Source of the DNA: Anaerolineales bacterium
GTDB taxonomy: Bacteria > Chloroflexota > Anaerolineae > Anaerolineales > Villigracilaceae
DNA length: 32,661 bases
Reading direction: 5' to 3'
NCBI GenBank assembly: GCA_016789345.1
Contig: JAEURG010000195.1
Span: 1-32,661, forward strand
Each line of letters opens with the position of its first letter. The stretch's first letter is position 1. The notes under the pieces were generated by a model, which was not told the DNA's origin, made no database searches, and was given only the letters and a program-made list of their open reading frames with translations. The position numbers and the translations under genes were made by a program. This document shows, one piece after another, positions 3,409-32,474 of this stretch.

Positions 3409-4624
3409 AACGAAGTGCTTCGACAGGTTCGAGGTTGGCGGCACGGCTGGCGGGGTAAATCCCGAAGAACAAACCGATGATTGCGGAAAAACTTGTCGAG
3501 AGGATGATTGCATCGGTGCCGACAATGGGAATAAAGTTTGTGCCAGAAGCAACCGCCACTTGACCAACAATATAAGCAATTAGCCAACCAAACATGATTC
3601 CAATAATGCCGCCAATTAAACTCAGCAAAGATGATTCGGTTAAGAATTGAAGCAAGATATCTTTCTTACGTGCGCCAAGTGCTTTTCTTAAACCAATCTC
3701 ACGCGTTCTTTCAGTGACCGATACCAGCATGATGTTCATAATGCCAATACCGCCGACGAGTAATGAAATACCGGCAATGCCGCCAAGGAAAATGGTTAAT
3801 ACGCCTGTAATGGATTCAAAGATGGTTAGAAAATCGGCTTGAGTGAAAATTGTAAAATCATCAAAACCAACTGGGGTGCGGTGGCGTTGACGAATAATGC
3901 TTGAAATTTCTTCTACTGCTTGCGGTACGGCTTCTGCTGAAACGGCTTGCACATAAATTACATCTACTTGGTCGCGTGCGCCACGCCGAATTAAACGTGA
4001 TTGTGCTGTAGTAAATGGAATGTAAGAACTATTATCTTCACTGCCAAATGCGCCACCGCCACGGGCAGTTAAAACGCCAATGATACGAAACGGCTGACCT
4101 TCAATGCGAATCGTTTCACCAACGACACCATCAGCACGCCCAAATAACGAAATCGCGGCTTCGGGTCCTAGCACCACTACAGACATTCTGCCTAAGATAT
4201 GCTCTGAATTGATAAACTCGCCTTCAGCCATTTGTAAATTGCGCACAGAAAAATATTCAGGTGTTGCGCCAGTGAGCGTGGCTGTTGTGTTTTCACCAGA
4301 AAATGTTAATAAAGCATTTCCTTCTAAGGTCGGTGCCACTTGTTCAACAGACGGTGCGGCAAATGGGTCTGCAATTGCGTTTGCATCAGATAATGTAAGC
4401 GGCTTGATATTATTTCCGCTTCTGCCTGTCCCTGGTCCACCGGGACCTTGTTGACTTTCAGGTGAGCCACTGAATACAAATAATAAATTTGTACCAATGC
4501 TTGAAATTGAACCAGTGATAGACGCTTGTGCACCATTACCAACTGCCAACATCGCAATGACTGCAGCAACGCCAATCACAATACCTAAAACAGTTAAACC
4601 TGAACGCATTTTATTGCCGTTCAA
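3401..4624 (-). CDS. MacB-type ABC transporter permease, 5' end interrupted by a stop codon
   Basis: Membrane subunit of an ABC efflux system of the MacB/FtsX fold. Its parts are a first membrane helix (LTVLGIVIGVAAVIAMLAVG), a large extracytoplasmic MacB_PCD domain, and three C-terminal helices ending in EPVEALRYE. The conserved TREIGLRKALGA loop is near residue 310. The called start is a TTG at 4624 without a good ribosome site. The same frame continues upstream through EALES, a TAA at 4642-4640, then MTFAQAL from an ATG at 4663 that overlaps the ATPase stop as ATGA. That arrangement is the expected natural start, so codon 8 is a nonsense codon. The remaining 407-aa frame is intact. It is expressed only if translation restarts, or if the stop is a sequencing error. 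Confidence 0.85.
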   Translation of the reverse strand: MNGNKMRSGLTVLGIVIGVAAVIAMLAVGNGAQASITGSISSIGTNLLFVFSGSPESQQGPGGPGTGRSGNNIKPLTLSDANAIADPFAAPSVEQVAPTLEGNALLTFSGENTTATLTGATPEYFSVRNLQMAEGEFINSEHILGRMSVVVLGPEAAISLFGRADGVVGETIRIEGQPFRIIGVLTARGGGAFGSEDNSSYIPFTTAQSRLIRRGARDQVDVIYVQAVSAEAVPQAVEEISSIIRQRHRTPVGFDDFTIFTQADFLTIFESITGVLTIFLGGIAGISLLVGGIGIMNIMLVSVTERTREIGLRKALGARKKDILLQFLTESSLLSLIGGIIGIMFGWLIAYIVGQVAVASGTNFIPIVGTDAIILSTSFSAIIGLFFGIYPASRAANLEPVEALRYE

Positions 4625-5365: not shown

Positions 5366-6628
5366 TTAACCTCCGCCGAATGGACCGCCAAATTGTGCGG
5401 GTGGATTCAAGATAATCAAATCGCCTTCGTTAATATCTCCGCTGGCAAGCACAGAAAAGTTATCAGATGAAGCACCCAGTGTGACGGTAATCGGAAGCGG
5501 TTGGTTATCGCGCAAAACGTACACCACTCGTTTTCCATCTATCAAACGCACGGCGCGGTTTGGAATTAATAAAACATCTTCTACTTCTTCTACCACAACA
5601 TTGACGGCAGTCGTCATACCAGGTTTGACGAGTTCATCTGCATCAGTCAGTTCAACAGTAACGGTAAAACTCACCACGCCTTGCACGGTTTCGCCAGCCT
5701 GCCCTACTTGCACTACTTTGCCGTTGTATTCTTTGTTGAGAATTGCATCAAACACCAAAACCGCTTCTTGACCAACTTTCACGCTGTTGATGTCCACTTC
5801 TGAAACTTGCACATCTACTAATAAACTGGAAATGTCGTCAATACGGAAGCCACTTGTGCCTGCTGTTACTTGGTCGCCTACCACCAAACTGGCTTGTGTA
5901 ATTGTGCCGTTGAATGGCGCGATTAAATACATTTGATTAAGCGTGGCTTTTGCCGCTTCGACTCGTGCTTTGGCGGCGGCTACTTCTTCGGACTCTTCGC
6001 CTTTGAGCAAGCGTTCATATTCGCGGCGAGCATCATTTAATCTTGATTCTGCTAAGGCTAAATCTTTATCGGCTTGGTCTATGGTTGCTTGACCCGCATA
6101 ACCGCGATATTCTTTTAATCTTAGATTGCCAAACTGGTCATAGACATATTCTTTAATATCAATTTTGCCGTTTAATTGCATGCGCCAGTTGTAGGCTTTT
6201 TCGTAGGCTTTTTCGGCTTTATCTACTGCTTGTTGGGCTTCGAGCAAGGCTGTATCAGAATTAAGTAAATTATCTAAATCTTTTTGGGCGCTGACTAAAT
6301 CGGCTTCTGCTAAAATAACGCTTTGATTCAATGAGGCTTTATCCAAACTTGCCAGCACCGTTTCTTTTGTAACCACATCACCAATTTGGGCATTGACCGA
6401 CTGGATAATGCCTGTGGTTTGCCAAGTTAATACCGCACTTTGTTTTGCCCGCACAGTCCCCGTCGCGCCGACAAAGGCTTGTAAATCACCGCGTTCGGCT
6501 GGGCTGGTTTGGTATGGGGAAACAGGCTCACCACCTGAATTGGCAAACACGACAGCCAGCAAAATCACTGCTACTACGCCGATAATTATCCATGTACGGC
6601 GAGAAAACCTTGCAAAAAATTGTTTCAT
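5366..6628 (-). CDS. HlyD/MacA-like membrane fusion (efflux adaptor) protein
   Basis: A 420-aa adaptor of the RND/HlyD family and first gene of the efflux operon. An N-terminal membrane anchor ([17 protein letters not shown], about 14-30) is followed by a lipoyl half-motif ([19 protein letters not shown]), a long helical hairpin from about 93 to 230 rich in Ala, Glu and Lys, the returning lipoyl half (LIAPFNGTI), a beta-barrel segment ([18 protein letters not shown]) and a membrane-proximal domain. It ends in a Gly-rich tail. The ATG at 6628 has GGAGG 11 nt upstream. Adaptors of this type with MacB partners also occur in bacteria without an outer membrane, where they shape substrate release. 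The substrate is unknown. Confidence 0.93.
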
Positions 6629-6877: not shown

Positions 6878-6896
6878 AAAGGTGACAGTCACCTTT
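6878..6896. repeat. solo palindrome AAAGGTGAC-A-GTCACCTTT
   Basis: A 9-bp perfect palindrome around a central A. It contains the core GTGACAGTCAC found in each arm of the double palindromes at 14792-19724. It looks like a single arm (solo unit) of that family. Confidence 0.65.
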
Positions 6897-14221: not shown

Positions 14222-14276
14222 TGAGTAAACTCCTGAAAGGTTGAGTAATTCTACTGTATTCGTTTTAGGAAACCTC

Positions 14277-14304
14277 TTGATTTTTTTTATTTCTTGGCTA
14301 TACT
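14277..14304 (+). promoter_or_regulatory. promoter of the HU-like gene
   Basis: TTGATT (14277-14282) and TATACT (14299-14304) are 16 nt apart, close to a consensus sigma-70 promoter. Transcription should begin near 14311, giving a leader of about 80 nt. Confidence 0.7.
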
Positions 14305-14314
14305 ATTTATTAAC

Positions 14315-14354
14315 GTGGGGGAAAAACCCGTTGCAGAAAACAATAAGCCCCCAC
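14315..14354 (+). promoter_or_regulatory. stem-loop at the 5' end of the HU-like mRNA
   Basis: GTGGGGG (14315-14321) can pair with CCCCCAC (14348-14354) around a 26-nt loop. The G tract could instead pair with the nearby ACCC after GGGGGAAAAACCC. The stem begins a few bases after the predicted transcription start, so it may protect or control the message. No known riboswitch class is recognised. Confidence 0.5.
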
Positions 14355-14392
14355 AACCCACCCATATTTTTCATTTGTAATAGGAGGCTGAA

Positions 14393-14773
14393 ATGACTGT
14401 GAAATACAATGTTGTGGAACGGGGCAACCCATCGAACCCAGGTGCCCCAAAGAAGTTTTACCCATCTATCAGTTCTAGCGGACGGAAGACTTTGCGCCAG
14501 TTGGCAGGGCGCATTTCTGAAATTTCGACCGTTTCGAGTACGGATACGATGGCGGTGCTTGAAGCGTTATTGACGGTTATCCCGCAAGAGTTGGCTTCGG
14601 GCAATATTGTGGAGTTGGGCGATTTTGGTAATTTTTGGCTGAAAGCCAACGCCGATGGCGTAGATGATGAGAATAATGTACGCGCTACTCAAATTACCAC
14701 CTTACTGCCACGCTTTAATGCAGGTAAAGAGTTTAAGAAAGTGCTGGCTACGGTTGAGTTTGAAAAAGCCTAG
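14393..14773 (+). CDS. HU-related DNA-binding protein (HU-HIG type)
   Basis: A 126-aa member of the HU/IHF superfamily in the longer branch annotated as 'DNA-binding protein, histone-like' (TIGR01201). It opens MTVKYNVVERGNPSNPGAPK, a hallmark of that branch. Then come the helical dimer part (TLRQLAGRISEISTVSS, DTMAVLEALLTVIPQEL) and the beta-arm region (GNIVELGDFGNFWLKANADG...TQITTLLPRFNAGKEFKKVL). AGGAGG lies 5 nt before the ATG. From general knowledge this branch is abundant in Bacteroidetes, so presence here suggests transfer. It has a strong promoter and a structured leader, and is followed at once by the first GTGACAGTCAC palindrome. Confidence 0.93.
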   Translation: MTVKYNVVERGNPSNPGAPKKFYPSISSSGRKTLRQLAGRISEISTVSSTDTMAVLEALLTVIPQELASGNIVELGDFGNFWLKANADGVDDENNVRATQITTLLPRFNAGKEFKKVLATVEFEKA

Positions 14774-14791
14774 TTGAACAAAGTTGGACAC

Positions 14792-14822
14792 AGTGACAGT
14801 CACCTTTAAGGTGACTGTCACT
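14792..14822. repeat. nested palindrome (GTGACAGTCAC family), copy 1
   Basis: AGTGACAGTCACCTT-t-AAGGTGACTGTCACT forms a 15-bp perfect stem. It begins 19 nt after the HU-like stop and is followed by an A run, so it may also act as a terminator. Each arm contains the 11-mer GTGACAGTCAC (or its complement), itself a palindrome. Confidence 0.9.
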
Positions 14823-14830
14823 TAAAAAAA

Positions 14831-14896
14831 CCTTCCTAGAGAGGTTTGTAATCCTTCCTAGGAAGGTTTGTAATTCTCCCTAGAGAGGTTTTAAAT
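14831..14896. repeat. three tandem 22-bp repeats
   Basis: The units start at 14831, 14853 and 14875. Each has the pattern CCTTCCTAGRRAGGTTTGTAAT with a few changes in unit 3, and a fourth partial unit follows. The middle unit is palindromic through CCTTCCTAGGAAGG. No coding potential was seen. The array sits between two GTGACAGTCAC palindromes. Confidence 0.8.
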
Positions 14897-14907
14897 CCTC
14901 CCTGCCA

Positions 14908-14944
14908 CAAGGTGACAGTCACTTTAGAAGTGACTGTCACCTTG
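14908..14944. repeat. nested palindrome (GTGACAGTCAC family), copy 2
   Basis: A 17-bp perfect stem, CAAGGTGACAGTCACTT with its complement, and loop TAG. The same TAG loop occurs in the copy after the RAYT gene (19688). Confidence 0.9.
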
Positions 14945-14971
14945 AAGGACTTGTTTGTAATCATGTAAAAT
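14942..14971 (+). promoter_or_regulatory. possible promoter of the restriction-modification genes
   Basis: TTGAAG (14942-14947) and TAAAAT (14966-14971) are 18 nt apart between palindrome copies 2 and 3. The predicted start near 14978 would put copy 3 at the 5' end of the mRNA. This is a weak consensus match. Confidence 0.35.
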
Positions 14972-14974
14972 ACA

Positions 14975-15007
14975 ACGTGACAGTCATCTTGAAGATGACT
15001 GTCACGT
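14975..15007. repeat. nested palindrome (GTGACAGTCAC family), copy 3
   Basis: ACGTGACAGTCATCTT-g-AAGATGACTGTCACGT. The inner C of other copies is T here and its partner G is A, so pairing is kept by a matching change. It ends 27 nt before the nuclease-methylase start. Confidence 0.9.
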
Positions 15008-15034
15008 GAATTAAGTAATTCTTCAGAGGAAAAT

Positions 15035-16975
15035 ATGACTACATTTCTTGAACGCGCACTCAAAGATGGACATGCAACCCTAAAAGGTGAAGGCAAAAAC
15101 GAGAAGATTACTTATGTTGCCTTGAATCATACTGAACGCTATAACGACCCCGAAGAAAAAGTACGGGCTGAGTTTTGGGCAGAACTAATTTATCGTTATG
15201 GATATGAACCTGATTGCATTGGGATAGAAATTATTGTGCCTGACCGCACTCCCTCAGACCGTGCCGATTTAGTCATCTTCAAAGATAACACGCGCAAAGC
15301 ACCCTATGCCGTGATTGAATGTAAAAGAGATGGAATCTCTGACCCTGAATTTAACCAAGCCGTAGAACAGGCTTGTGGAAATGGCACTTGGCAAAAGTTT
15401 CGTGCTAGTTATGTCATGGTAGTAGCAGGCGGAACGAGACGTGCATTTGACTTTACTGGTAAATATGGTGTGTTGGAACGTGAACAAAATATCATCGCTG
15501 ATATTCCCGCCCAGTACGGCAAGCCCGAAGAATTTAAGTACGTCAAAAATGGCTCATTGGATATAAAACCCGTCAGCAAAGAAGAGTTGATTTCAGCCAT
15601 CAAGAAGTGTCATCAAACTTTATGGGAAGGTGGCAGACGTACTCCTCCTGAAGCGTTTGGAGAGTTATCGAAAATCATTTTTGTAAAAATCAGTGATGAG
15701 AAAAATACGAAGCGCGGGCAACCGTATCAATTCCAAATCAAGACGCATGAAAAAAGCAATAAGTTAGCGGAACGAATCCGTGATTTATATGAAACGCAAC
15801 GCCAACGTGAGCCAAACGTCTTTACTGACACAATCAAAGTAGATGACCCGATATTAAGAACAGTCGTCTCTCATCTTGAAGGAATCAACCTCAACGCTAC
15901 GGATTTAGATACCAAAGGTGTGGCGTTTGAACAATTCATGGATGGATTCTTCAAAGGTGATTTCGGACAATACTTTACCCCGCGTGAAGTGATTGCCTTT
16001 GCCGTAGAAATGCTTGCCCCTACTCACACCGATATTGTCTTAGACCCTGCTTGTGGTTCAGGTGGCTTCTTGTTATATGCTTTAGATGCTGTGCGCCGTG
16101 AAGCCGACGAATATTTTGACCAAGATACTATTCAACATAAATCACACTGGCACGACTTTGCACAAAAAAGATTATTTGGGATTGAGTTAAATGACTCGAT
16201 TGCGAGAGTCGCCAAAATGAATATGATTGTTCACGATGACGGACATACCAACGTCATCAGCGTAGATGCGTTACAAGATGTGCAAAAAATTAAAGAAGAA
16301 AATAAAGGCTTCGCTTTTAATCGCTTTGATATTATTTTAACAAATCCGCCTTTCGGGGCAGTGGTGAAAAAGACTGAGAAAAAATACCTTGAAGGATATG
16401 ATTTAGATTATGACTGGATAGATGGCGCAAGAGGCAAAAAGCCAAAGCCTGCTGTCAAAACAGAAATTTTATTTTTAGAACGCTGTTATCAGTTCTTAAA
16501 GCCAAACGGACGCATGGCAATCGTTTTACCTGATGGCATTCTTACCAATTCTTCTTTACAAAGTGTACGAGACTGGTTGCTCGAACATTACCGTTTGTTA
16601 GCAGTGATAAGCCTGCCACAATTTGCTTTTGCTCACTACGGCGCGGGCGTGAAAGCCAGCCTAGTCTTTTTACAAAAGCGTGAAGCAAACGAAACACCCG
16701 ATGATGATGATGCCATTTTTATGGCAATTGCCGAAAACATTGGCTATGATGCCACAGGTAGAAAAACGTTTAAACCGTTTAGAGAAGCGAAAATCATCGG
16801 TGACACAAAGACGGAATGGCTACGCTGTGACTTGTTCGATATGCAATTTATTTACAAGCGCGATTCACTCAACCCTGATAACTGGGTGGAGACCCACAGG
16901 CAGGTTTTACCCCAAACAGGTTTGATTGCTGAATATCGTAAGTTTACGGAGAACCCACAACCTTTTTTCGCCTAA
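15035..16975 (+). CDS. restriction-modification protein: HsdR_N-like nuclease fused to N6-adenine methylase
   Basis: A 646-aa DNA methyltransferase with a nuclease-like N-terminus. Residues about 35-180 resemble the type I HsdR N-terminal PD-(D/E)xK domain: RADLVIF (D78) and AVIECK (E95, K97) supply the D...ExK set. Residues about 190-600 are an N6_Mtase of the HsdM type, with GQYFTPREV near 311, SAM motif DPACGSGG at 337-344 and catalytic NPPF at 437-440. No helicase motifs are present. Size and layout match the RM subunit of BcgI-like (type IIB/IIG) systems, which work with a separate specificity protein, encoded next. AGAGGA precedes the ATG. Cleavage activity is inferred from the motif only; a methylase with a regulatory or dead nuclease domain is possible. 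Confidence 0.9.
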   Translation: MTTFLERALKDGHATLKGEGKNEKITYVALNHTERYNDPEEKVRAEFWAELIYRYGYEPDCIGIEIIVPDRTPSDRADLVIFKDNTRKAPYAVIECKRDGISDPEFNQAVEQACGNGTWQKFRASYVMVVAGGTRRAFDFTGKYGVLEREQNIIADIPAQYGKPEEFKYVKNGSLDIKPVSKEELISAIKKCHQTLWEGGRRTPPEAFGELSKIIFVKISDEKNTKRGQPYQFQIKTHEKSNKLAERIRDLYETQRQREPNVFTDTIKVDDPILRTVVSHLEGINLNATDLDTKGVAFEQFMDGFFKGDFGQYFTPREVIAFAVEMLAPTHTDIVLDPACGSGGFLLYALDAVRREADEYFDQDTIQHKSHWHDFAQKRLFGIELNDSIARVAKMNMIVHDDGHTNVISVDALQDVQKIKEENKGFAFNRFDIILTNPPFGAVVKKTEKKYLEGYDLDYDWIDGARGKKPKPAVKTEILFLERCYQFLKPNGRMAIVLPDGILTNSSLQSVRDWLLEHYRLLAVISLPQFAFAHYGAGVKASLVFLQKREANETPDDDDAIFMAIAENIGYDATGRKTFKPFREAKIIGDTKTEWLRCDLFDMQFIYKRDSLNPDNWVETHRQVLPQTGLIAEYRKFTENPQPFFA

Positions 16976-16989
16976 GCCCTTCCGCGCAG

Positions 16990-17012
16990 AAGACTTCTAC
17001 TAATGAAGTCTT
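16990..17012 (+). other. small hairpin between the methylase and specificity genes
   Basis: AAGACTTC pairs with GAAGTCTT around a 7-nt loop and is followed by TT. The loop holds the A of an ATG (17003) whose frame is one base out of step with the specificity gene. It might weaken transcription or translation of the second gene. Confidence 0.5.
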
Positions 17013-17028
17013 TTATCACTGTTTTGCC

Positions 17029-18378
17029 GTGCGGCGGGGCGAAATTACTAGAAGCCTTCATTCAGAGTTTTATCATCCTGAAAGAAGACTTGCAATAAAA
17101 AGTATTCAAGAAAAATGGCTAGGGAAATCCTCTTCATTAGCTCAAGTTCTTAATTTTGATGAAAGACTTATTACATATAAACCTGACCTCTTTTATGTTG
17201 GGTTAGCAAATGTCGAGAGTGAAACAGGTGCATTTGTTGAAACAGATGAGCAAGAACCAGAGGGTACTTGTCGTTTATTCAATGAAGGTGACATATTGTA
17301 TGGAAAACTTCGTCCATATTTGAATAAGGTTTATATTGCTCCCAAAAGTGGGCAATGTTCAACAGAATTTTACGCTCTAAGTGCCATAGACCAAAAGAAA
17401 CTTGACCATACCTTTCTTGCTTCATTTTTAATGAGCAAGCCTTTTTTAGCTCAATCAATTCACATGATGACTGGAAATACACATCCTAGAATATTACGAG
17501 AAGATTTTGAAGAAATCCTAATCCCCCTCCCACCTCTTGATGTTCAAAAAACGCTCGTTGCACAAATGGAATCCGCACGGGCTACGCGCCAATCCAAGTT
17601 AGCCGAAGCAGACAATCTACTCACAGGGATTGATGAATTTGTATTGCGAGAGTTAGATATTCAGTTACCGAAGGAAGAAAAAAGACAATCGTTTGCAGTT
17701 AAGTTATCAAAGATTAAGCAAGGCAGACAGGACGTTACCTATTACAAACCTTATTATGAAAAGTTAGTAAATTCATTAAATAAAAGTAAATTTCCAAAAA
17801 TACCTCTTGAAGATATATCACCTGATTTAGTAGGTGGCGCAACGCCAACAAGGGGAGATACTGAACTTTATGCAGAGGATGGCATCAAGTTTTTGCGTAT
17901 CCTTAACATTGGAGAAAATGAAATTATCTTAGAAGACTTAAATTATATTAAAGAAATAGTCCATAATGGAGAACTAAAAAGGTCTCAATTAGCTGAGAAT
18001 GATGTATTAATGACTATTACAGGACGTGTTGGAACAAGCGCAGTAGTTTCAATAGATATTTTGCCAGCAAATATAAACCAACATATTGTAAGAATGAGAA
18101 TAACTCATCAAGAATGTTTACCTGAATATCTTGCAATTTACTTAAATTCTTCTATCGGTAAAGCGTTAAGTAATCGCGGAGTGACTGGCGGAACACGTAT
18201 TGCACTAGATTATGAAGTTATAAAAAAGATACAAATACCATTACCACCGCAAAAAGTTCAAGAGAAAATCATCAAAGAACTCCATAGTCTGCAATCTCAA
18301 GCCCGTCAACTGCGCCAAGAAGCCGAGAGTCAATGGCAAACTGCAAAAGAGAAGTTTGAAAAAGCGTTGTTGGGGTAA
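17029..18378 (+). CDS. type I-like specificity subunit (HsdS family)
   Basis: A 449-aa DNA-recognition subunit that would direct the upstream nuclease-methylase. It has two target-recognition domains: about 1-180 (FNEGDILYGKLRPYLNKV, ILIPLPPLDVQKTLV) and about 235-420 (VGGATPTRGDTELY, LAENDVLMTITGRVG, IQIPLPPQKVQEKII). Each ends in a long helix, as in HsdS proteins. The reported start is a GTG at 17029 with no ribosome site. The frame is open upstream into the methylase gene. An ATG at 17003 reads MKSFITVLP in another frame and would join this protein if one base were restored. The true start is therefore uncertain, and a one-base deletion or assembly error is possible. The two TRDs differ, which predicts a bipartite asymmetric site. 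Confidence 0.9.
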   Translation: MRRGEITRSLHSEFYHPERRLAIKSIQEKWLGKSSSLAQVLNFDERLITYKPDLFYVGLANVESETGAFVETDEQEPEGTCRLFNEGDILYGKLRPYLNKVYIAPKSGQCSTEFYALSAIDQKKLDHTFLASFLMSKPFLAQSIHMMTGNTHPRILREDFEEILIPLPPLDVQKTLVAQMESARATRQSKLAEADNLLTGIDEFVLRELDIQLPKEEKRQSFAVKLSKIKQGRQDVTYYKPYYEKLVNSLNKSKFPKIPLEDISPDLVGGATPTRGDTELYAEDGIKFLRILNIGENEIILEDLNYIKEIVHNGELKRSQLAENDVLMTITGRVGTSAVVSIDILPANINQHIVRMRITHQECLPEYLAIYLNSSIGKALSNRGVTGGTRIALDYEVIKKIQIPLPPQKVQEKIIKELHSLQSQARQLRQEAESQWQTAKEKFEKALLG

Positions 18379-18379
18379 G

Positions 18380-18412
18380 AAGTGACAGTCACCTTAAAGG
18401 TGACTGTCACTT
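18380..18412. repeat. nested palindrome (GTGACAGTCAC family), copy 4
   Basis: AAGTGACAGTCACCTT-a-AAGGTGACTGTCACTT, a 16-bp perfect stem starting 2 nt after the specificity-subunit stop. It lies between convergent genes and could end transcription from both sides. Confidence 0.9.
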
Positions 18413-18421
18413 GGGTATGTT

Positions 18422-18970
18422 TTACTTCTTCTTTCTTCTCCTGCTAAATTTTTTTCTGCCTTCTTTTAGTGCCTTCTCAATTGCCTTATTCCATGTATCC
18501 CAATCTTTCAAACCGCCATATTTATCTTCAAGAGCAAATGGTAAATCTGTAATACGGGCTAGTTTATTGCAAGAATTAAGCAGGTCAATATATCTTTCTC
18601 CTGTCAAATCAAACTTAACAAAGAATTTTATAGCCGTAAAAAGATTATAAAGTTCCCTTTGTTTTTTACTCAAAGTCTGAAAAAACATAAAATCAGCATT
18701 TTCAACTAAGTTTGAAATATTACTCTTACAATCTCCAGATAATTCAATTCGTACCACCCTAGACCCCATTTCATACGGGTCGCGTCTGTCTTTTGCGCCT
18801 AGCGCATCTAAAAATGAGGTAATAAACATTATTTTTAGTGTTCTATTTAATCTCCTGATAATAGAAAAGGCAAACATATCCAGTGAATTATCATCGCGTT
18901 TATCTAGGGAATCACCAATATCTTCATCATCTGGTTCATCGTCATCAGATATATCTTCATGGCTGTTCAT
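18422..18970 (-). CDS. hypothetical protein, acidic N-terminus and basic C-terminus
   Basis: A 182-aa protein of no family I recognise. The first 30 residues are very acidic (EDISDDDEPDDEDIGDS) and probably disordered. Residues about 32-150 look like a compact helical domain (FAFSIIRRLNRTLKIMFITSFLDALGAKDRRDPYEMGSR, ELYNLFTAIKFFVKFDL). The tail KFSRRRKKK is strongly basic. There are no membrane segments and no obvious catalytic motif. AAAGGAG lies 8 nt before the ATG, so it is a real gene. It points toward the RM genes and lies between two GTGACAGTCAC palindromes, which suggests it came in as cargo or as an accessory of the island. A nucleic-acid-binding or regulatory role is only a guess. 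Confidence 0.75.
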   Translation of the reverse strand: MNSHEDISDDDEPDDEDIGDSLDKRDDNSLDMFAFSIIRRLNRTLKIMFITSFLDALGAKDRRDPYEMGSRVVRIELSGDCKSNISNLVENADFMFFQTLSKKQRELYNLFTAIKFFVKFDLTGERYIDLLNSCNKLARITDLPFALEDKYGGLKDWDTWNKAIEKALKEGRKKFSRRRKKK

Positions 18971-19016
18971 CTCATTATCTCCTTTGTAAAATAGATTTTG
19001 AAAGTTTATAATAAAA

Positions 19017-19049
19017 AGGTGACAGTCACTTTGAAAGTGACTGTCACCT
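19017..19049. repeat. nested palindrome (GTGACAGTCAC family), copy 5, left of RAYT
   Basis: AGGTGACAGTCACTTT-g-AAAGTGACTGTCACCT, a 16-bp perfect stem 39 nt before the transposase ATG. Confidence 0.92.
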
Positions 19050-19088
19050 GAGAGACACCAAGAAACCTAAGATAACAGGAGGAACACG

Positions 19089-19685
19089 ATGCCCTACGCC
19101 CGAAAAGATTTGCTCACTTGGCAAGCAGGCATGTATTATCACATCTACAATCGTGGTATCAGTAAATCTCCTATCTTTCGAGAAGAAGCAAATTATCTTT
19201 TTGTACTTGAAAAAGTAAAAGAATATACCAAAGCCAATCATTTAAGCATGATTGCCTATTGCCTTGAACCAAATCATTATCACTTCTTAACAAGGCAAGA
19301 TGGCGAAGAACCAGCGGGTAATTTACCTCAATATGTTTTCAATAGTTATGTCAAAGCCTATAATAAGAAATATCAACACAGTGGAACATTATTTGAAGGG
19401 CGTTTTCGAGCAAAAGTCATTCAAAGCAAAAGTCACTTATTACACTTATGCCGATACATTCATGGAAACCCTGTCAAAGATGGTTTAGTAGCAGACCCTG
19501 CTCAATGGCTCTACTCCAATTATTTAGAATGGATTGGGGAAAGAAACGGTTCACTGGTAGATAGAGATTTTATTAAAACTCAATTTGCCAATGCAGAAGA
19601 ATATAAAAAGTTTTTGTTTGCTTACTTAAAATCTCGCCAGTTACCCGATGATGTTAGAAAATTTATTGATGATTTAGAAAAATAA
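19089..19685 (+). CDS. REP-associated tyrosine transposase (RAYT, Y1/IS200-like)
   Basis: A 198-aa single-strand DNA transposase of the HUH/Y1 superfamily. YHIYNRG at 17-23 is the typical RAYT N-terminal strand. The metal-binding HUH motif is PNHYHFL (His63, His65). GTLFEGRFRAKV at 99-110 and YIHGNPVKDGLV at 123-134 are further RAYT landmarks; Tyr123 is the likely nucleophile. The length is normal and the frame intact. AGGAGG lies 6 nt before the ATG. Palindromes of one family flank the gene on both sides (19017-19049 and 19688-19724). From characterised cases, RAYTs are usually single-copy, bind and cut REP hairpins and are thought to spread them. This one is predicted to act on the GTGACAGTCAC family. 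Confidence 0.93.
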   Translation: MPYARKDLLTWQAGMYYHIYNRGISKSPIFREEANYLFVLEKVKEYTKANHLSMIAYCLEPNHYHFLTRQDGEEPAGNLPQYVFNSYVKAYNKKYQHSGTLFEGRFRAKVIQSKSHLLHLCRYIHGNPVKDGLVADPAQWLYSNYLEWIGERNGSLVDRDFIKTQFANAEEYKKFLFAYLKSRQLPDDVRKFIDDLEK

Positions 19686-19687
19686 AC

Positions 19688-19724
19688 ATAGGTGACAGTC
19701 ACTTTAGAAATGACTGTCACCTAT
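19688..19724. repeat. nested palindrome (GTGACAGTCAC family), copy 6, right of RAYT
   Basis: ATAGGTGACAGTCACTT-tag-AAaTGACTGTCACCTAT, a 17-nt stem with one C-A mismatch, starting 2 nt after the transposase stop. Its TAG loop and inner bases match copy 2, so copies 2 and 6 are the same subtype. Confidence 0.9.
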
Positions 19725-19764
19725 TAATAAAAACCGCTAAAAGCCAACCGCTAACCGCTAAAGG

Positions 19765-19770
19765 TATAAT
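19765..19770 (+). promoter_or_regulatory. -10 box TATAAT, leaderless start
   Basis: TATAAT ends 8 nt before the ATG at 19779 and no ribosome site intervenes. Upstream are short direct repeats of CCGCTAA (about 19733-19762). Confidence 0.65.
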
Positions 19771-19778
19771 CCCCCACT

Positions 19779-32441: not shown

Positions 32442-32474
32442 AAATGAGCGTCACCTTGAAGGTGACGCTCATTT
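32442..32474 (+). terminator. terminator hairpin, divergent relative of the GTGAC palindromes
   Basis: AAATGAGCGTCACCTT-g-AAGGTGACGCTCATTT, a 16-bp perfect stem running into a T run. The inner GTCACCTTgAAGGTGAC matches the centre of several island palindromes, but the outer arm reads GAGC instead of the complementary part of GTGACA. The stop codon of the VanZ-like gene lies inside it. Confidence 0.85.

Follow-up and report, generated by a model that had tools for sequence, protein, structure and literature searches.

REPtrons, REPINs and TIRtrons are known kinds of system (PMC3733652, PMC6006769, PMC8266576; see also PMC3116915 and PMC2817692). What guides a RAYT to its repeats, and whether it mobilises them, is a standing question. 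Y---NP is the signature of class 2 TnpAY1 and residues W94, Q95, E100, H101 and R104 are discussed for the reading of the GTAG tag by E. coli TnpAREP (PMC6006769). REPs usually number over 100 per genome (PMC2817692), and GTAG repeats have been reported in Chloroflexi (PMC3733652), so REPs are not new to the phylum. TIRYT genes, the RAYT-like genes of TIRtrons (Di Nocera et al. 2013, PMC3733652), are described there as flanked by long, tagless, partly self-complementary repeats (TIRs), some of which form moderate genomic families and some of which have GGGGWSAS. Quentin et al. 2018 (PMC6006769) describe 'double foot' REPs for TnpAY1 subclass 2.4: long symmetric hairpins, present also inside genes, whose feet bear GT[AG]G and the complementary sequence. 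The authors note that loss of the centre of a REP dimer could produce such hairpins.

The locus studied here lies in a window of 32,661 nucleotides, meaning the whole stretch of DNA that was analysed. It resembles the REPtron or RAYT-REPIN systems of E. coli and Pseudomonas in the HUH-Tyr TnpAREP fold and Y---NP motif of its enzyme, in its single gene copy, and in its cognate flanking palindromes, which are inverted pairs of palindromic units scattered in intergenic DNA; it differs in its 33-nt elements with a 3-nt centre and in having no GT[AG]G tag. Like REPINs, these elements are inverted pairs of REP-like units, each palindromic, with arms that are imperfect palindromes; unlike them, they form a population of tens (28 in the source genome), not hundreds. 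As in TIRtrons, a RAYT-like gene is flanked by tagless repeats that form a moderate family, whereas GGGGWSAS is absent from the arms, the C-terminal HTH of TIRYT proteins (mostly subclass 2.1) was not found in the RAYT, and clade-by-clade switching of the palindrome is shown here within one bacterial family. Double-foot REPs share the long symmetric hairpin and the occurrence inside genes, but not the tagless feet. Among the papers listed by searches of open-licence PMC text we found no description of a tagless 15-3-15 family in Anaerolineae, of a clade-linked palindrome switch or of the copy-number dissociation reported below.

We regard it as probable that this is a REPtron-like locus, in which a single-copy HUH-Tyr protein of the TnpAREP/RAYT family is paired with its own cognate, minimal, tagless REPIN. 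Related RAYTs of a single bacterial family are paired with palindromes that differ in sequence but share one 15-3-15 frame and lack the GTAG tag presumed to direct cutting. The clade-specific palindromes thus provide natural swaps with which specificity can be tested, as well as a simple, minimal substrate, and the different hairpins of each RAYT branch make co-evolution of enzymes and repeats testable in uncultured Anaerolineales.

Palindromes and RAYT gene in the window

The segment 14792-19722 holds six palindromes of 31-33 nt, laid out as a 15-nt arm, a 3-nt centre and a second 15-nt arm (Table 1). Their core, GTGACAGTCA-N9-TGACTGTCAC, starts at 14793, 14912, 14977, 18382, 19019 and 19692, confirming the original prediction of six copies at 14792-19724 and of an intact RAYT gene beside two of them, namely palindromes 5 and 6. 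At up to 1 mismatch GTGACAGTCAC matches the window 24 times, against a mean of 0.35 in shuffled sequence (0 of 100 shuffles reach 24). The six palindromes put six of the 28 genome copies inside 4.93 kb of 3.44 Mb, where simple arithmetic gives an expectation of 0.04. The arms of palindromes 1-5 are fully paired over 14-15 bp and palindrome 6 has one unmatched pair. Base changes had been said to occur alike in both arms, and pairing is indeed kept in five copies; the sixth pairs CAC with ATG, so that its arms mismatch at that place.

Free-standing arms are found as the solo arm that had been placed at 6878, and as four AGAC..GTCT units in a gap of G001. The hairpin taken for a divergent relative at 32442 has its inner 17 nt in common with the palindrome family, and with its T7 tail it resembles an ordinary terminator. 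A 22-nt unit, CTTCCTAGAGAGGTTTGTAATC, stands in three tandem copies between palindromes 1 and 2 (14832-14903); similar palindromes, CTAGAGAG, are present at L265:1510-1537 in G007, near HU/HsdM genes, and in G004, where the RAYT follows downstream. The 182-aa ORF has no match in Pfam or NCBIfam and has a 62% identical relative at the same place in G003. A fused MFS/spermidine-synthase gene comes after the RAYT.

Table 1. Coordinates of features in the window (single ranges) and of features near clade-1 RAYTs in other genomes.
Feature	Location	Strand	Remarks
Solo arm AAAGGTGACAGTCACCTTT	6878..6896		perfect 19-nt palindrome, one central base
HU-HIG DNA-binding protein	14393..14773	+	Pfam, NCBIfam
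Palindrome 1, 31 nt	14792..14822		18 nt past HU-HIG gene stop
Palindrome 2	14910..14942
Palindrome 3, CAT/ATG variant	14975..15007		upstream of HsdM-like gene
HsdM-like N6 methylase with HSDR_N_2 domain	15035..16975	+	MAD2 model match below MAD2 cut-off
HsdS-like specificity subunit	17029..18378	+	Pfam, NCBIfam
Palindrome 4	18380..18412		between HsdS stop and 182-aa ORF
182-aa ORF	18422..18970	-	bracketed by palindromes 4 and 5
Palindrome 5	19017..19049		upstream of RAYT; end ~40 nt before ATG
RAYT / TnpAREP-like Y1 HUH protein, 198 aa	19089..19685	+	H63-Y-H65, Y123---N127-P128
Palindrome 6	19690..19722		start 4 nt past RAYT stop; one arm position unmatched
Related hairpin TGAGCGTCACCTTGAAGGTGACGCTCA + T7 tail	32442..32474		7 nt past end of penicillin-amidase ORF
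Type I R-M beside clade-1 RAYT	source genome, G003, G019, G108
MmeI-like gene beside clade-1 RAYT	G036, G031, G081, L038 of G084
C5 methylase	G010		2.2 kb from clade-1 RAYT
Piwi-domain (Argonaute-like) gene	L274:5604-7919 (G026)		~1.3 kb from clade-1 RAYT
In-frame MmeI palindromes	L272:4480-4516, 5676-5708
In-frame MmeI palindromes	L273:2910-2946, 4095-4131
In-frame MmeI palindromes	L277:4396-4428, 5593-5625
In-frame MmeI palindromes	L038:2320-2364, 3517-3555

The RAYT matches Y1_Tnp of Pfam at 5.9e-07 and REP_Tyr_transpos of NCBIfam (NF047646) at 59.6 bits, under the curated cut-off of 80. H63, H65, Y123 and N127 are invariant across 58 RAYT rows and P128 is conserved in at least 90%; the conserved Y123-I-H-G-N-P agrees with the class-2 signature, and pairwise alignment sets Y123 against Y115 of 4er8. 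An AlphaFold2 model (pLDDT 93.5) placed E. coli TnpAREP (4er8) first in Foldseek (E 1.3e-8, TM 0.60/0.71), with the TnpA proteins of IS608 and ISDra2 among those ranked next. By its HUH and Y---NP motifs and its nearest fold, the window gene is a true relative of TnpAREP. The E. coli residues for GTAG recognition are all changed (W94F, Q95E, E100A, H101K, R104Q, in a weak pairwise alignment, E 0.056), in line with palindromes that have no tag. A C-terminal HTH/Bac_DnaA_C domain was not found, Pfam at E 0.001 giving only Y1_Tnp. The source genome has a single RAYT.

Palindrome types, RAYT clades and copy number

A search of the whole source genome (3.44 Mb in 289 contigs, 87% complete), as proposed with the original prediction, gave 28 pairs when as many as 3 mismatches were allowed, although one pair with 3 mismatches is doubtful; a reversed-pattern control gave 0. 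At up to 2 mismatches, pairs are present in 54 of 57 genomes of the same genus and in 121 of 152 of the family (reversed control: one match in each of 3 genomes), and the highest number of GTGAC pairs in any of the 152 is 43. A scan of named genomes matched at least 112 stretches. Among the 80 matches listed, 79 have titles from Chloroflexota (Anaerolineales, Caldilineales, Thermoflexales, Ardenticatenaceae and others); the remaining one is titled as an Alphaproteobacteria bin, and its centre does not form a palindrome. Together the scan and the family counts show that the motif is widespread in Anaerolineae and not private to the window.

RAYT homologues at E 1e-10 or better are present in 69 of the 152 family genomes. 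From 70 loci, consisting of the window RAYT and 69 of the better-scoring places listed, some shortened by contig ends, we kept 67 RAYT rows of at least 150 aa and sought adjoining palindromes without regard to sequence. Upstream palindromes with at least 14 pairs end 12-40 nt ahead of the RAYT start codon in 23 of 31 cases, and downstream ones begin 0-18 nt past the stop in 26 of 36. GTGACWGTCAC arms flank 16 of the 16 rows of one clade (clade 1), a single change on the tree, and the AGAC[CT]TCSGA[AG]GTCT type flanks 21 rows of another clade. Further types are GTGCG (3 rows), GTCCCGAAGG (4), CTCCCGCAGG (1) and other palindromes (4); the remaining 18 rows had no palindrome within 120 nt, and 8 of these form one clade. 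Shuffled labels require a mean of 14.5 changes for GTGAC (0 of 500 shuffles as low as one); the clade's own support is only 94/54, and 96% of 200 bootstrap trees give one change. All palindrome labels together require 16 changes, against 38.1 shuffled. Palindromes with a common 10-mer on both sides bracket 28 of the 67 RAYTs (11 of 16 in clade 1) and 8 of 656 control ORFs, 4 of which are themselves at RAYT loci. Outside the family, RAYTs are flanked by GTGACGGTCAC (L325), GTGCCAGGCAC (L335, L338) and GTGCGACGCAC (L330, L342), and many of the 24 loci have no flanking palindrome.

GTGAC pairs average 20.1 in the 16 genomes with a clade-1 RAYT (least 2) and 7.5 in the 136 without one (31 of them zero). 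Permutation within genera, which treats genomes of one genus as exchangeable, ties GTGAC copies to clade-1 RAYTs (p=5e-5; 8.5e-4 minus 3 local copies) and not to clade-2 RAYTs (p=0.22/0.66). Copies of GACCTCCGAGGTC (GACCTC), present in 76 of 152 genomes, follow a 7-genome CCTC subclade of clade 2 that was delimited after the palindromes had been seen (p=5e-5, also minus 3 local copies); for all clade-2 RAYTs p=1.5e-4 (0.05 minus 3 local copies), and for clade-1 RAYTs p=0.17/0.89. The copy numbers therefore dissociate, GTGAC following clade-1 RAYTs only and GACCTC a clade-2 subclade only, and this is comparative evidence for action of each RAYT on its cognate repeat. Clade-specific bracketing, tracking of copy number within genera and the RAYT fold all support the predicted pairing of the RAYT with its own REPIN-like family.

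The palindrome is thus not equally common where the RAYT is missing, yet it is common there: at least one GTGAC copy is carried by 105 of the 136 family genomes that have no cognate RAYT, so the enzyme is apparently not needed for persistence. A profile search with 58 rows found no clade-1 RAYT in 12 genomes with 15-26 copies, drafts that may have gaps (best 142 bits, against 311-314 for two positive controls), and distant RAYT-like matches were present in 11 of them. Either the palindrome persists without the enzyme or the drafts miss it. Strict dependence of the palindrome on the RAYT was rejected on these two counts.

Hairpin shape and placement of dispersed copies

We examined 177 distinct copies. 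Since the search pattern already specified most arm positions, arm conservation is not itself evidence, and it is the free positions that are informative. Long-hairpin pairing is 92-100% at all 15 arm positions. The arm opens with A, followed by A/G and GTGAC. Most copies have A or G at position 2 and C or T at position 14, and a deviation in one arm has its counterpart in the other in 90 of 92 cases at position 2 and 70 of 79 at position 14. Such matched changes can also be explained by template switching without selection. A2 with C14 (67 copies) and G2 with T14 (52) prevail, whereas combinations permitting self-pairing within an arm (G-C 26, A-T 7) occur less often than expected (0.20 observed, 0.45 expected). 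This pattern indicates that the long hairpin is kept while each arm, like many REPs, is palindromic only in part. A set of 21 arms from other clades, chosen without regard to arm sequence, is nested as well (5.14 internal pairs, 3.24 shuffled).

Each copy had been predicted to fold either as one long hairpin or as two short ones. Formally both folds exist, but the energies are lopsided: palindromes 1-5 fold as DNA at -15 to -16.3 kcal/mol and palindrome 6 at -12, while a single arm reaches -1.6 to -1.7 against about -16 for the long form. With self-pairing at positions 2 and 14 also avoided, nested arms as an equal alternative were rejected. A GAGACAGTCAC...GTGACTGTCTC variant, with the arm palindrome broken and the long hairpin retained, makes up 5 of the 28 source-genome copies (L064, L065, L067, L068, L069) and also occurs in G003 and G024. 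Outside 250 palindrome ends there was no fixed tetranucleotide, and the GT[AG]G tag is absent.

What the comparisons show is pairing by clade, tracking of copy number, changes that keep the hairpin, and the placement of copies; binding, cleavage, mobilisation and terminator activity we infer as follows. Two inverted 15-nt REP-like units round 3 nt would form one 15-bp hairpin in single-stranded DNA. Most likely the RAYT would recognise this long hairpin where it is exposed single-stranded, for example on the lagging-strand template, and may cut and rejoin beside it through Tyr123; in this way palindromes could have been copied or moved round the genome. Copies are retained mainly just past stop codons, where some may serve as RNA-hairpin terminators, so that palindromes could outlive the enzyme.

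It is also conceivable, though unlikely, that the palindromes are no more than an intrinsic-terminator sequence preferred by Anaerolineae and that their closeness to RAYTs is incidental. Dispersed copies begin a median of 8 nt from the upstream stop codon (n=77), 38% of 125 copies have at least 5 T of 8 on at least one side (0.22 per end, against 0.03 nearby), and palindromes occur in RAYT-less genomes. When two source sites were compared with relatives, the palindrome was present at site 1 in the source genome only and at site 2 in the source genome and G024, with a shortened form in G003; elsewhere at both sites relatives hold other hairpins, identified by eye, or other sequence. No clean 33-nt empty site was found at two L062 sites nor in the FMN-binding/spermidine-synthase gap; the lack of an insertion junction speaks against the mobilisation proposed above. 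Stop-codon proximity, T-runs and the hairpins in relatives' gaps suggest that part of the dispersed copies likely act as terminators. As a full account, however, this does not predict the clade-specific bracketing upstream of RAYT start codons or the copy-number dissociation, and most copies have no clear T-run. Moreover, of the 126 dispersed copies 23 fall within ORFs and 9 at edges, while 57 occupy tandem, 20 convergent and 17 divergent gaps; with 248 tandem, 63 convergent and 76 divergent control gaps, there is little bias in gap type and little preference for convergent gaps (20 of 94 copies, 63 of 387 control gaps).

Neighbouring defence genes and rival forms of mobility

Clade-1 RAYTs often adjoin defence-type genes (Table 1); that of G076 lies instead beside a ribonucleotide reductase and a LysM protein. 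Restriction-modification (R-M) type neighbours were counted at 15 of 69 RAYT loci (7 of 15 in clade 1, the source locus not counted), 0 of 110 palindrome-only loci and 2 of 25 spermidine-synthase loci. This count is biased, since the reference proteins came partly from these loci, and between RAYT and spermidine-synthase loci p=0.11; Pfam counts, for the best 25 families listed, point toward R-M enrichment too.

These neighbours raise the possibility, which we consider improbable, that the palindromes bound exchangeable gene cassettes and that the RAYT mobilises R-M cargo. In G024, whose flanks are 93% identical, a different insert, 5.6 kb long, occupies the homologous site; it contains a clade-2 RAYT and methylase/restriction-type genes and has clade-2 palindromes at both ends, as an exchange of cassettes would have it. 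Between the source genome and G003, on the other hand, neither the TRD1 swap nor the ORF divergence starts at a palindrome: identity shifts inside HsdS (17041-17520) and inside the 182-aa ORF, which gives no support to palindromes as sites of segment exchange in this pair. A general role of RAYT-palindrome modules as cassette boundaries in Anaerolineae, with the RAYT swapping R-M modules between palindromes, is doubtful, together with its extension to in-frame palindromes flanking the target-recognition part of MmeI-like enzymes.

The FMN-binding/spermidine-synthase gap (14222-19778; G024:C365:34500-44000) is an insertion hotspot. It contains R-M genes and a clade-1 RAYT in the source genome and G003, other restriction genes and a clade-2 RAYT in G024, and is nearly empty in several relatives; a distance of 80-215 nt separates the two flanking genes in G047, G018, G039, G050, G017, G043 and G054.

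RAYTs lie at different loci in different species and have palindromes on both sides, as would the ends of an IS200-like insertion sequence whose RAYT gene itself transposes. We think this very improbable: full-length clade-1 RAYTs number one per genome in 16 of 16 genomes, with no multi-copy identical units, the palindromes far outnumber the genes, and TnpAREP is the nearest fold with the IS TnpA proteins behind it. Operator sites, bound as double-stranded DNA by the RAYT or another protein for regulation without mobility, would suit the position of the upstream palindromes just ahead of RAYT starts, and are highly improbable because hairpin-keeping changes at variable positions and scattered sites past stop codons fit a hairpin better. 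The preferred reading remains the REPtron-like pairing of RAYT and hairpin.

In the MmeI-like restriction genes by clade-1 RAYTs, two palindromes of GTGAC type stand in frame at corresponding positions of the alignment (Table 1), one before the NPPF motif and one before the conserved C-terminus; they encode VTVTS-like repeats. We considered these palindromes as candidate exact borders of the variable part of MmeI: identity drops about 20 conserved residues, NPPF motif included, after the first palindrome. At L062:2790-2860 we observed a different dispersed repeat of about 65-70 nt, GTCACCCTGAGC...GCTCAGAATGACA, which matches many genomes of the genus, mostly at 83-96%.
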